In this document: in pieces, positions 199 to 6,961 of the stretch
Numbering within the stretch: position 1 is the first letter of the stretch
Layout: every line of letters starts with the position of its first letter
Assembly (NCBI GenBank): GCA_947365485.1
Contig: CANAXK010000094.1
Location: 1 to 6,961 of the forward strand
DNA length: 6,961 bases
Origin: an uncultured bacterium
GTDB lineage: Bacteria > Cyanobacteriota > Vampirovibrionia > Gastranaerophilales > Gastranaerophilaceae
Direction of reading: 5' to 3'
Notes under the pieces: model-generated
The model's input: only the letters and a program-made list of their open reading frames with translations
Databases searched by the model: none
What the model was told of the DNA's origin: nothing
Position numbers and translations under genes: made by a program

Positions 199-231
199 AA
201 AAAGAGCCCCGTTAAATAAGGGCTCTTTTTT
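199..231. terminator. Bidirectional intrinsic terminator after the ferredoxin gene
   Basis: The arms 199-209 (A5-GAGCCC) and 220-230 (GGGCTC-T5) are perfect complements around a 10-nt loop. There is a T run on the 3' side and an A run on the 5' side. It can therefore stop ferredoxin transcripts on the plus strand and antisense transcripts arriving from the minus-strand gene at 1088-1948. The right arm, without the left arm, recurs at 808-819 in front of the third paralogue. Confidence 0.88.
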
Positions 232-233
232 CA

Positions 234-242
234 TGGTACAAT
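234..242 (+). promoter_or_regulatory. Extended -10 promoter of paralogue copy 1
   Basis: TGG followed by TACAAT at 237-242 forms an extended -10 element immediately after the terminator. No good -35 hexamer is visible at the expected spacing (the bases there are AAATAA). The predicted transcript starts near 249, so the leader would be very short and consist mainly of the ribosome binding site AAGGAG (249-254, 7 nt before the ATG). The same element recurs at 822-830. Confidence 0.55.
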
Positions 243-261
243 TAATTCAAGGAGTATTTAT

Positions 262-525
262 ATGTTAATAAATCCTATCTCAAATCAAACAAGCTTTAGG
301 GCGGTTAACCAGAAGTATTATCAGTGGGCGAAAAAAGAGGCTAATGGGTGTAAGCGTTTTGGTGAAATACTTGAACAGCTGCGTTTTGATGTTGCTTGGG
401 GAGATATTCACCCGCGGGATGGTATTGATACGGTGAATGAGATTATTAAATTAAACGGAAGTACTGATTCTGGATTTGAACATATTCTTGAAGGTTTTCG
501 AAGAAGACTTGCAAAATTAAAATAG
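262..525 (+). CDS. Tandem small-protein paralogue, copy 1 (unknown function)
   Basis: An 87-residue soluble protein of a family I do not recognise. The first 29 residues (INPISNQTSFRAVNQKYY, then QWAKKEANG) are identical to copy 2 apart from the following C-terminal drift. The C-terminal half keeps the family core DVxWxDxHPxDxIDT at about residues 45-59, but otherwise differs from copies 2 and 3 and ends in a basic tail (RRRLAKLK). There is no signal peptide or membrane segment. It has a strong AAGGAG site and an extended -10 promoter, and lies 20 nt before copy 2, so the two are probably cotranscribed. The N-terminal SFRA/SFKA block is of a kind I associate with Gastranaerophilales proteins. 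A role as a sorting or secretion tag is speculation. Confidence 0.8.
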   Translation: MLINPISNQTSFRAVNQKYYQWAKKEANGCKRFGEILEQLRFDVAWGDIHPRDGIDTVNEIIKLNGSTDSGFEHILEGFRRRLAKLK

Positions 526-545
526 ATTTCATCAAGGAGTATAAA

Positions 546-800
546 ATGTTAATAAATCCTATCTCAAATCAAACAAGCTTTAGGGCGGTGAATCAGAAGT
601 ATTATCAGTGGGCGAAGAAAGAGGCTAATGGATGTCATCGTTTTGGTGAACTTTTTACCCAGATAGAAATGGATGTGTGCTGGAAAGATATGCATCCACA
701 AGATGCAATTGATACACTTGAAGCTATAAAGAAGATTATGCCACCAGATTGGAAAGGTATTGAAATTACATTTGAATATGTTAAGAAATTTCTTCCTTAG
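546..800 (+). CDS. Tandem small-protein paralogue, copy 2 (unknown function)
   Basis: An 84-residue paralogue of the flanking genes. Residues 1-30 match copy 1 almost perfectly at DNA level. From the GELF motif on, it matches copy 3 (DVCWKD, HPQDAIDT, MPPDWKG, ending YVKKFLP). It contains C30 and C45, no membrane segment and no signal peptide. Its Shine-Dalgarno is AAGGAG at 534-539, 6 nt before the ATG. No promoter is evident in the 20 nt after copy 1, so expression probably comes from the copy 1 promoter. Differences from copy 3 in the C-terminal half are mostly synonymous or conservative, which argues that a real protein is under selection. Function unknown. Confidence 0.82.
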   Translation: MLINPISNQTSFRAVNQKYYQWAKKEANGCHRFGELFTQIEMDVCWKDMHPQDAIDTLEAIKKIMPPDWKGIEITFEYVKKFLP

Positions 801-849
801 TAAATAAGGGCTCTTTTTTCATGGTACAATTGATTCAACGAGTATTTAT
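801..849 (+). repeat. Direct repeat of the copy 1 leader (213-261)
   Basis: This block matches 213-261 at 47 of 49 positions and continues into the first ~80 nt of the coding sequence. It begins exactly after the TAG stop of copy 2 and carries the terminator right arm, the -10 element and the Shine-Dalgarno region. The two differences are A to G in the AATTAATT stretch and G to C in the Shine-Dalgarno. It marks the junction of a segmental duplication that produced copy 3. Confidence 0.85.
822..830 (+). promoter_or_regulatory. Duplicated extended -10 promoter of copy 3
   Basis: TGG-TACAAT (hexamer at 825-830) lies within a 49-nt block (801-849) that repeats 213-261 with two mismatches. The repeated promoter means copy 3 can be transcribed independently of copies 1 and 2. 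No left arm of the hairpin precedes it, so read-through from copy 2 is also possible. The ribosome binding site has changed from AAGGAG to AACGAG (837-842). Confidence 0.5.
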
Positions 850-1107
850 ATGTTAATAAATCCTATATCAAATCAAACAAGCTTTAAAGCGGTTAACCAG
901 AAGTATTATCAGTGGGCGAAGAAAGACATTGAATACGGCATCGGGCTTTCTGGTGAACTTTTTACCCAGATAGAAATGGATGTGTGCTGGAAAGATTTAC
1001 ATCCACAAGATGCTATTGATACACTTGAAGCCATAAAAAAGATTATGCCACCGGATTGGAAAGGTCTTGAAATAACACTTGATTATGTTAAGAAGTTTCT
1101 TCCTTAG
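850..1107 (+). CDS. Tandem small-protein paralogue, copy 3 (recombinant; unknown function)
   Basis: An 85-residue paralogue. At DNA level its leader and first ~20 codons follow copy 1 (GTT AAC for Val-Asn, where copy 2 has GTG AAT). From GCG AAG AAA onward, and through the whole C-terminal half, it follows copy 2. Between the two shared parts it has its own segment, DIEYGIGLS, one residue longer than EANGCHRF in copy 2. The C-terminal half keeps DVCWKD, HPQDAIDT and YVKKFLP. Its Shine-Dalgarno is weakened to AACGAG, so it may be translated less than its siblings. The 3' end overlaps the convergent gene 1088-1948 by 20 nt. No terminator follows. Function unknown. Confidence 0.8.
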   Translation: MLINPISNQTSFKAVNQKYYQWAKKDIEYGIGLSGELFTQIEMDVCWKDLHPQDAIDTLEAIKKIMPPDWKGLEITLDYVKKFLP

Positions 1108-1948
1108 TTTTGACTAACTTCGGCGCCATTGCCCCAATAGCAGTACCGGCAGCCATGCCGGTTAAAGACCCGAATGCACCGAGATGTTTGTATCCGGCAG
1201 CACCCAGATACCCGACTCCAGCAAGAGTTGTCCCGACTTCCAATGCAGTTTTTCCGACCTCCTCAAAAATATTTTTGCCATCTGCTATTTCATAGCCAGC
1301 ATGGATTGCACCCAAACCGCCAAGGACAAATACGCCAAGTTTAGGAGTTCGTGTTAATGCACGGGCAGTTAAGTCAGCAAATGTATTTTTGGATTTGTAA
1401 ACGAAAGCTCTGGCAAAATTAGGATTCTCTTGAGTGTGTAACAAACTCTCTATATTAGTATTTACTTGCGCTACTTGCTTTACACCAAGCTTATCCAACA
1501 CCCATTCACCCAACTTCGTCTCCGCAAGACTTACATCCGCCTTAATCACCTTCTTCGCAAGCTTCTTGTCCAAACACTTTTCCGAGTTAGGATTCAAATA
1601 CTCGTGCAAAACCGTACCACGGAAAAACGAAAACGGATGCTGCGCAACTTTCGGGTCATAACCGTCCTGCTTGTTGTCTTTGAACTTCGACTTTATCTGC
1701 TTCCACGCAGAATAAATCTCATCAACGTCAGTCGGGCCGTTCAAAACAGCCAGCGAGGTCAAAGCCTTTGCACACAGGTAATCCTTGTCAGCCGCCTCTT
1801 CCACAATGTCGCCACCCCACCACGGTGCTTCGGCTTTGTCTGTATCAGAAGAGCCTGCCCTGAAACCGGATTTAACCAGCCTGTAATCTCTTATTATGTT
1901 GGGCACTTTCTCTGCCCTGTATTGTTGCATTATAGCATCAATTGACAT
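1088..1948 (-). CDS. Unrecognised protein with Gly/Ala-rich hydrophobic C-terminal region
   Basis: A 286-residue protein I do not recognise. Residues 1-160 are polar and mixed, with an acidic/Trp patch around 40-52 (EAPWWGGDIVEE) and Lys-rich stretches at 83-94 and 127-137. Residues 198-280 are hydrophobic and Gly/Ala rich: a segment at 203-218 (LGVFVLGGLGAIHAGY), an amphipathic linker, then 236-277 with repeated small residues (GxxxG-like spacing). These could be two to three membrane or membrane-inserting helices. There is no N-terminal signal peptide. The ATG at 1948 has an AAGG site about 7 nt upstream. Its final codons are the complement of the end of paralogue copy 3, so the tail may have been set by the tandem array. 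A membrane-active role is possible but unproven. Confidence 0.75.
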   Translation of the reverse strand: MSIDAIMQQYRAEKVPNIIRDYRLVKSGFRAGSSDTDKAEAPWWGGDIVEEAADKDYLCAKALTSLAVLNGPTDVDEIYSAWKQIKSKFKDNKQDGYDPKVAQHPFSFFRGTVLHEYLNPNSEKCLDKKLAKKVIKADVSLAETKLGEWVLDKLGVKQVAQVNTNIESLLHTQENPNFARAFVYKSKNTFADLTARALTRTPKLGVFVLGGLGAIHAGYEIADGKNIFEEVGKTALEVGTTLAGVGYLGAAGYKHLGAFGSLTGMAAGTAIGAMAPKLVKTKEETS

Positions 1949-5770: not shown

Positions 5771-6961
5771 CTAGTTGCCGCTGCAGCCGAACGCTATAGT
5801 AACGTGTTCTTTCGGGTTAATAGATGAGATTTTGTAGCCCTTAGCATCTACAAGGTAACCAATTTCGTCACCAGTAGCCTGAACTAAGCCGGTTACACCG
5901 GATACAGCTGTTCTTGTGAAGTCGATAGGTGCCTTAACAGTATCAACTACTGCGTCACCCAAGCTTCTGCCAGCTGCTGCAAACTGACCCTGGAATGTTT
6001 CACCCAAAGCGATACCTGTACCTGATGCAACGTCTTCAAGAGCGTTACCGAGGTTAGAAATCATACCGCCTGTAGTTCTACCTACGATACCAAGCATCTG
6101 TCCGCCCCAGGTAAGTGGTGCTGTAACAATTCTTGATACGATGTTTGGAGTATTTGATTTGTTAATTTCCGCATTAAGAATCTGTCTAGGCAATGTTGCT
6201 TTTTGACCGCAGTTTTCAATTTCTGTAAACGCAAGTTTCAAAGCACCCTTTTGACATCCTGAAGGTCTTACAACTTCTACAACCTTACCGTATACGTTTG
6301 AACCGCATGGGTACAAGTGGCCGTTGATAGTTACATCTTCAAGGGTTTTAGCTGCGAATCTCTGACCTACGTGAGAAGATTTTGCAGATACCTGGTCTCT
6401 GAATTTAAGTTTCAATGTAGGGATTTTAACAAGTTCTTCATTTTCGATGAATGCCTTTTTGTCAGTCGGGCAAATTGGACAATCATTGTTTGCTGTTACA
6501 GGGTTCTTGTCAATACCAGATGAAACGCGGATGTTTTGTAACATTGCTGCGATATCAGCACGTGTTGCATCCTTAAACGGAGCAATAGTCTTAGGATTTG
6601 GAGAGTTGTTCAAAGCACCCTTTTCTAAAGCTGTTGCAATAGAGATTTGTGCCCATTCAGGAACAGTGTTACCATCTGTATACTGTGACAATATTTCCTG
6701 TGCTTTGCATTTATCAACCGGTGTGCAAGGAATACCCTTAGACAATGCACATAGAGCTTCTACTCTTGTTACGTTATGGTTAGGCATAAATTTGCCGTTT
6801 GGATAGCCCTTTAACAAGTCCTGATGAACTGCAACGGTGATAGCTGAGTTAGCCCAGTGGTTTGTAGGAACGTCTGAGAACAATTTTTCAGGAGCGCAAG
6901 AATACATGTCTTTGTCAAATCCTTTAACTAACATTGTAGCAAATTCTGCACGTGAAATGTT
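5771..6961 (-). CDS. SLH-domain envelope protein, N-terminus beyond the window
   Basis: 396 residues are visible. The frame stays open to the window edge, and the codons before the ATG at 6934 read NISRAEFAT, the end of an SLH domain (ITRAEFA motif). The true start is therefore upstream, and the ATG at 6934 is internal. Domains: end of SLH 1 (1-15), SLH 2 (about 28-76, FSDVPTNHWANSAI to VTRVEALCAL), SLH 3 (about 94-142, YTDGNTVPEWAQ to ATRADIAAML), a beta-rich domain (about 181-267, with VGQRFAAKTLEDV and CGSNVYGKVVEV), and a Gly/Ala-rich amphipathic tail (274-364). SLH domains anchor proteins to cell-wall polymers. Unlike typical cyanobacterial SLH proteins, no OprB-like porin barrel is evident. 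Ten cysteines, including a CPIC pair at 161-164, suggest disulphides. A strong terminator follows. Confidence 0.85.
   Translation of the reverse strand, partial: NISRAEFATMLVKGFDKDMYSCAPEKLFSDVPTNHWANSAITVAVHQDLLKGYPNGKFMPNHNVTRVEALCALSKGIPCTPVDKCKAQEILSQYTDGNTVPEWAQISIATALEKGALNNSPNPKTIAPFKDATRADIAAMLQNIRVSSGIDKNPVTANNDCPICPTDKKAFIENEELVKIPTLKLKFRDQVSAKSSHVGQRFAAKTLEDVTINGHLYPCGSNVYGKVVEVVRPSGCQKGALKLAFTEIENCGQKATLPRQILNAEINKSNTPNIVSRIVTAPLTWGGQMLGIVGRTTGGMISNLGNALEDVASGTGIALGETFQGQFAAAGRSLGDAVVDTVKAPIDFTRTAVSGVTGLVQATGDEIGYLVDAKGYKISSINPKEHVTIAFGCSGN

Follow-up and report, generated by a model that had tools for sequence, protein, structure and literature searches.

A candidate N-terminal sorting tag shared by a hypervariable family of tandem small proteins and by unrelated proteins of Gastranaerophilales

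Described systems and their likeness to the locus

Modular proteins in which a constant N-terminal part serves trafficking and the C-terminus varies are well known from polymorphic toxins and RXLR-type effectors. Pore-forming colicin genes and their immunity genes are convergent. Flagellins are established substrates of type III export, while amylases and 5'-nucleotidases are types of enzyme often found outside the cytoplasm. The locus described here lies in a DNA stretch of 6,961 nucleotides (contig CANAXK010000094.1 from an uncultured member of Gastranaerophilaceae), hereafter referred to as the window. In it, three tandem small genes, whose products begin with a common N-terminal tag, face a larger convergent gene, which we call the partner.

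Like polymorphic toxins and RXLR-type effectors, the small family combines a constant N-terminus with a variable body, is multicopy and recombines between copies. It differs from both in its 70-residue body, which is predicted to be helical and has no similarity to known toxins, and in having no PADLOC match. In polymorphic toxin loci the immunity gene is variable and lies in the same operon, whereas the partner is conserved and convergent. The window pair resembles a pore-forming colicin and its immunity gene in being convergent and in the hydrophobic C-terminus of the larger protein. However, the small protein is soluble by hydropathy (maximum 0.05 over 19 residues), the pairing of bodies with partners is loose, and no known colicin domain was found in the window partner by Pfam search.

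Like Sec signal peptides the tag is N-terminal, and 5'-nucleotidases of other families of the order have a Sec-like segment at the site that the tag occupies in the genus; the tag differs in lacking a hydrophobic core. It resembles type III and flagellar export signals, which are short, uncleaved, disordered, rich in Ser, Asn and Ile and poor in acidic residues. They also have an aliphatic residue 3, which is I or V in 29 of 44 tagged open reading frames (ORFs) and I, V or L in 32, counts that are partly due to construction, the search pattern itself demanding an early I or V. Unlike such signals, the tag contains a fixed F-x-A/G at about residues 10-20, and flagellin-family proteins of the same genomes do not carry it (absent from all eight examined). 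In early flagellar subunits a non-polar N-terminus is combined with a second motif located at least 26 residues downstream, as set out in PMC8983047. Identity of the tag with this gate-recognition motif was rejected, since in the window copies F-x-A/G starts at residue 12 and not at the distance of at least 26 residues given in that paper. Targeting of cargo to microcompartments or encapsulins was also rejected: PF00936 and PF04454 were each found in 0 of 37 genomes by searches whose controls were positive.

Three tandem small genes and their convergent partner

The small genes are ATG ORFs on the forward strand: copy 1 (262..525, 87 amino acids), copy 2 (546..800, 84 amino acids) and copy 3 (850..1107, 85 amino acids), whose stop codon overlaps the convergent gene. 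Residues 1-30 of copies 1 and 2 are identical, and within the first 26 residues copy 3 departs from copy 1 only by R13K and E26D. Beyond the shared N-terminus the copies diverge except for a D-V-x-W-x-D-x-H-P-x-D-x-I-D-T core, kept as DVAWGDIHPRDGIDT, DVCWKDMHPQDAIDT and DVCWKDLHPQDAIDT in copies 1, 2 and 3, respectively. The ORFs and the alignment bear out the tandem trio with a fixed N-terminus and changing C-termini (87, 84 and 85 residues) that was described in the initial annotation. The similarity between copies is not due to chance, because 32 family proteins were retrieved at E<=1e-3, a set that includes copies 3 (P0002) and 1 (P0017) of the window, and most can be aligned over their full length.

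An AlphaFold2 model of copy 2, based on 46 relatives, has a mean pLDDT of 81.8 and four helices from residue 17 onwards. Residues 1-16 are modeled without secondary structure, with a pLDDT of 46 for residues 1-10. A known fold was rejected after Foldseek searches of PDB and BFVD returned no match at E<=0.001 for the small protein and a PDB fold search with the partner model (pLDDT only 67.7) returned none. Pfam gave a best E of 0.23, below cut-off, for the small copies and no family for the partner. Phage origin was rejected, PHROGs yielding nothing for the small proteins and 0.071 for the partner and BFVD being likewise without a match; membership in an anti-phage defence family was rejected for want of a PADLOC match.

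The 48 nucleotides preceding copy 1 (214..261, forward strand) and copy 3 (802..849, forward strand) are identical at 46 positions, whereas the corresponding sequence of copy 2 agrees with either at only 11 of 48. By eye, the block at 214..261 contains the distal arm of a stem-loop that lies behind a ferredoxin gene, a T run, TGGTACAAT and AAGGAG; the block at 802..849 has a ribosome-binding site (RBS), AACGAG. The elements named by eye in the former block were not returned by a promoter and terminator scan. An explanation by promoters or terminators was rejected, promoter-like sites being at the level of shuffled sequence and terminator-like sites numbering 2 versus 0.8. Part of the sequence that separates the ferredoxin gene from copy 1 has been duplicated ahead of copy 3.

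Substitutions were counted by the Nei-Gojobori method. Between copies 1 and 2, divergence is low over codons 1-36 (dS 0.27 and 0.40) and reaches saturation in the body (dS 1.48). Over codons 27-36 copy 3 is far from copies 1 and 2 (dN 0.72 and 0.77, the value for copies 2 and 3 being 0.72). The body of copy 1 is distant from those of copies 2 and 3 (dS 1.48 and 1.76, dN 0.70 and 0.72). From codon 37 to the end, copies 2 and 3 are separated by 6.5 synonymous and 4.5 nonsynonymous changes (dS 0.30, dN 0.039, ratio 0.13). Since copy 2 is near copy 1 over codons 1-36 and near copy 3 over the body, it is, by its sequence, a mosaic in which a copy-1-like 5' part is joined to a copy-3-like 3' part. 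In genome G019, which has three paired copies, DNA identity is 83-95% in the 5' UTR, 95-98% in the tag and helix 1, 66-75% in the body and 80-89% in the neighbour gene; between C47 and C18 of this genome, protein identity is 98% for the partner, 96% for the tag with helix 1 and 56% for the body. The window mosaic and the G019 pattern together indicate that recombination helps to keep the N-terminus alike.

The body dN/dS is about 0.04-0.35 in nine family pairs with tags of moderate similarity and a body dS in the range 0.03-0.5. The median over all 69 pairs with body dS <0.8, a set dominated by distant and mosaic pairs, is 0.70. Within codons 1-26, synonymous and nonsynonymous changes number 3 and 0 between copies 1 and 2, 4 and 2 between copies 2 and 3, and 3 and 2 between copies 1 and 3. 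Purifying selection on both bodies and tag is supported between close copies. The initial annotation had counted about six synonymous and four conservative changes between copies 2 and 3, close to the values obtained here, and had taken them as a sign of purifying selection, which the body ratios (0.13 for copies 2 and 3, 0.04-0.35 in close pairs) support; its suggestion of gene conversion gains support from the three-way mosaic in the window and the G019 copies. It had overlooked the divergence of copy 3 over codons 27-36, the remoteness of the copy 1 body, the upstream block common to copies 1 and 3, and the convergent partner gene.

The partner gene (1088..1948, reverse strand, 286 amino acids) was delimited as an ORF and characterized through its homologs, alignment, convergent association and hydropathy. 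It overlaps copy 3 by 20 nt, the two genes being convergent with overlapping stops, and its product has a conserved HPFSFFRGT motif and a Gly-rich, mildly hydrophobic C-terminus. There are 330 homologs at E<=1e-3 (the best 120 of the 330 being listed). The Kyte-Doolittle maximum over 19 residues is 1.42 for the window protein, less than the 1.6 usual for a membrane span, and 1.2-2.0 in relatives; the prediction that the protein inserts into a membrane is weak for the former and better for some of the latter.

The small family is present in 9 of 37 genomes, the window's own included. Among the 22 genomes of the genus, 8 have both the small family and the partner, 14 have neither and none is discordant. 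Outside the genus the partner family was found in 11 of 15 genomes; one of them, G030, has 18 matches that face several small-gene types. Pairing was scored as a convergent small ORF with the loose tag pattern R1, without an RBS requirement, within 60-70 nt of the stop, in 51 of 63 partner matches (11 rows, fragments or not fetched, had been excluded beforehand, and one had no room). Such an ORF was present at 37 of the 51 partner genes, which come from across the order, compared to 110 of 1434 control ORFs (7.7%), a rate at which about four of the 37 pairings are expected by chance. Pattern R2 gave 35/51 versus 75/1433, and when an RBS was required pairing was lower, 25/51 versus 40/1440 in controls that include the family's own cases. 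The bodies from the 33 pairings with R1 on the chosen small ORF formed 14 phmmer clusters. In one genome, the small proteins of loci L235 and L237 have 20 of their first 21 residues in common and then differ. A second set of 66 loci, reduced to 53 by exclusion of L229 and of 12 contigs already seen among the 65 scanned, contained a tagged convergent small gene in 36 cases by eye. Of the 48 loci of this set with any ORF, 37 matched R1, a count not used as a test because some of the matches are PHP-type genes. We conclude that small gene and partner together form the actual unit, a convergent module of two genes.

Ten partner loci (L225, L226, L228, L232-L234, L236 and L239-L241) have no small gene and are convergent to an adjoining gene that was named by eye as a PHP-type metallohydrolase; at L004 a similar gene, also named by eye, precedes the small gene. 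Decayed partners were seen at L005:627-1497 (broken into two ORFs, the adjacent small gene being intact), at L010:1999-2340 in genome G015 (a remnant with a stop, again next to an intact small gene) and at G000:C101:4788-5156 (a piece interrupted by a stop). Across 45 pairs, the identity of the small bodies rises with that of the partners (Spearman 0.61), as either relatedness alone or co-evolution can bring about.

The N-terminal motif on unrelated proteins

The tag comprises residues 1-14 of copy 1, MLINPISNQTSFRA (262..303), and the corresponding parts of copy 2 (546..587) and copy 3 (850..891), all on the forward strand. This motif of about 14 residues, common to unrelated proteins, has the form M-x-I/V, an Asn/Ser-rich linker and F-K/R/Q-A/G (more generally F-x-A/G). 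Many ORFs of the genus begin with it, and relatives outside the genus have variants such as DTVSF-x-A/G. When the tag was removed from 44 tagged ORFs sampled from genus genomes, six of them from the small family, the remainders fell into 31 phmmer clusters at E<=1e-3; the ORF caller and choice of start were simple and home-made. Searches of the open-access PMC literature for a description of this kind of motif in Gastranaerophilales, Melainabacteria or Vampirovibrionia found none.

Tag patterns were fixed before new genomes were fetched, and internal Met residues served as controls. In the genomes G020, G009 and G005 taken together, pattern C matched 5/456 N-termini versus 1/2323 internal Met (Fisher 6e-4), pattern D 8/456 versus 10/2323 (p 0.005) and pattern B 6/456 versus 11/2323 (p 0.047). 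A second hold-out of further G005 DNA gave 8/329 versus 5/1893 for a later rule (p 1.4e-4) and 8/329 versus 9/1893 for pattern D (p 0.0015); patterns B (p 0.11) and C (1/329 versus 0/1893, p 0.15) were not significant there. Enrichment was small for pattern A (59/968 N-termini versus 174/4779 internal) and weak in a position count of all FxA triplets. Pattern C was absent from the N-termini of two other families of the order (0/154 and 0/115), and its exact form is therefore a feature of the genus.

The initial annotation had suggested that the segment of about 26 residues may be a common address, to be checked by looking for unrelated proteins that share the N-terminus alone. Such proteins were found, in the 31 clusters, for the first 14 or so residues, and to this extent the suggestion is supported. 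It does not hold for the segment as a whole: the second half, AVNQKYYQWAKK, forms helix 1 of the model and was noted only in family members. Partner binding, also put forward there, is unlikely in the sense of docking to the adjacent partner alone, because G005, G009 and G020 carry tagged ORFs and have no partner gene. In G005, three small tagged genes, two with related bodies, lie next to each other at L127:7237-8358 (minus strand), and a fourth is located near this run at L127:17994-18365 (minus strand).

In a comparison of 30 tagged proteins with Pfam, two 5'-nucleotidases, a GNAT acetyltransferase, an M16 peptidase, an alpha-amylase (its relative was below cut-off) and one HTH protein scored above cut-off, and the remaining proteins had no match at E<=0.01. 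Fifty N-termini of 5'-nucleotidases of the order (L265-L314, one gene being counted twice) belong to two well-supported clades. One clade consists of 12 rows, all of other families in the order, 10 of which have a Sec-like hydrophobic segment; among the 12 are a row truncated at the 5' end and another whose start is uncertain. The clade of 38 rows, which has no such segment, holds all 22 genus members, and 17 of these match R1. The split indicates that tag and Sec signal occupy the same place in the two clades; the signal-less enzymes could simply be cytoplasmic. Of the 19 genus loci of the M16 peptidase whose N-terminus is covered, 15 have the tag, and none of 30 loci, within the genus or beyond it, showed a Sec signal. 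Since a Sec signal is missing from all 30, the tag is no substitute for one in this peptidase, and Sec-to-tag replacement was rejected for it. A Sec-type hydrophobic core of about 10-12 residues was found in 0/44 tagged ORFs compared to 412/1887 sampled ORFs, although the pattern itself disfavours hydrophobic stretches.

Possible roles of the tag

From these sequence comparisons, we put at roughly 45% the probability that tandem, recombination-shuffled gene copies encode hypervariable cargo and that the segment of about 14 residues in front of it is an uncleaved tag for sorting or export, independent of Sec. A shared receptor would recognize the tag and move the protein out of the cytoplasm, perhaps by way of a flagellar-type III export apparatus, the hypervariable body being the cargo. 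The recombination that swaps bodies would find its anchors in the conserved 5' DNA and in the 3' end of the partner gene, which is conserved as well, and the partner would associate with the membrane and receive, tether or neutralize the small protein. A wider version is rather doubtful: a previously undescribed Sec-independent signal may send a few percent of Gastranaerophilales proteins, hydrolases and the small effector-like family among them, through flagellar-type export, the small proteins forming with their convergent membrane partner an order-wide module whose bodies are swapped by recombination anchored in tag DNA and the partner 3' end. Should the tag serve export, it would offer a first entry point to the exported proteins of these widespread gut bacteria, most of them uncultured, and such proteins could be listed from sequence; the convergent hypervariable module would represent a novel type of locus that generates diversity. 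Should sorting be confined to the cell interior, the tag still points to a shared receptor worth seeking.

Genes of the FlhA family (FHIPEP) are present in 37 of 37 genomes, with at least two matches each, and a flagellin domain in 36 of 37. The presence of FlhA does not discriminate, since untagged genomes have FlhA genes too. Besides the flagellar operon, a second FlhA-type operon with genes named by eye as FliE- and FliF-like was seen at L155:7979-13995 and L154:9040-12942 (minus strand). The FHIPEP matches usually include, in addition to these two, a shorter protein with the C-terminal part only. In genome G011 a small/partner pair adjoins the second FliE/FliF/FlhA-like operon.

The convergent pair could instead be a toxin and its antidote, the partner being a membrane-active toxin, the small proteins variable immunity or antitoxin proteins, and the N-terminus merely fixing folding or expression. 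This is an improbable reading, despite the constant convergent geometry with stops overlapping or nearly touching, the Gly-rich, hydrophobic end of the partner, the several small genes per partner (in the window and at L143), the strict co-occurrence within the genus and the Spearman correlation. The tag is borne by many proteins that have no partner; a single partner in the window serves three small proteins with two body types, and the two most similar partners, 98% identical and from one genome, go with bodies that are 56% identical. Moreover, the small gene of G015 is intact beside a decayed partner, ten partner loci adjoin a PHP-type gene and lack a small gene, and PADLOC had no match.

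Recent duplication with gene conversion might have produced the shared N-terminus as a mere by-product devoid of tag function. The upstream bases common to copies 1 and 3, the mosaic copy 2 and the same pattern in G019 DNA could be explained in this way, but synonymous changes outnumber nonsynonymous ones in codons 1-26 (3:0, 4:2 and 3:2) in spite of about five times more nonsynonymous sites, and the motif is kept in distant relatives and on unrelated proteins. We regard this explanation as the least probable of those considered. It is also unlikely, if slightly less so, that the tag lets its bearers dock to some other machine in the cytoplasm, such as a protease adaptor or chaperone, or is a feature of translation start. 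Recurrence of F-x-A/G at the protein level in many clusters, and the presence among tagged enzymes of an amylase and 5'-nucleotidases, point away from such a role, whereas the disorder of the modeled tag (pLDDT 46 over residues 1-10) and its Asn-rich composition with few acidic residues, partly imposed by the pattern, would suit it. An export or sorting tag is the reading we prefer.

Elsewhere in the window, Pfam identified a radical SAM protein at 2086-2709 and an SLH-domain protein at 5771-6961 (minus strand), and between 2709 and 5771 there are genes that we take to be Maf-like, S1-like, TruB-like and RbfA-like. At L029:388-1748 (plus strand), a long ORF starting with MGMAASQVRLLQLTSRKNDIG adjoins a small-family gene; by eye its product is coiled-coil-like and possibly related to export.
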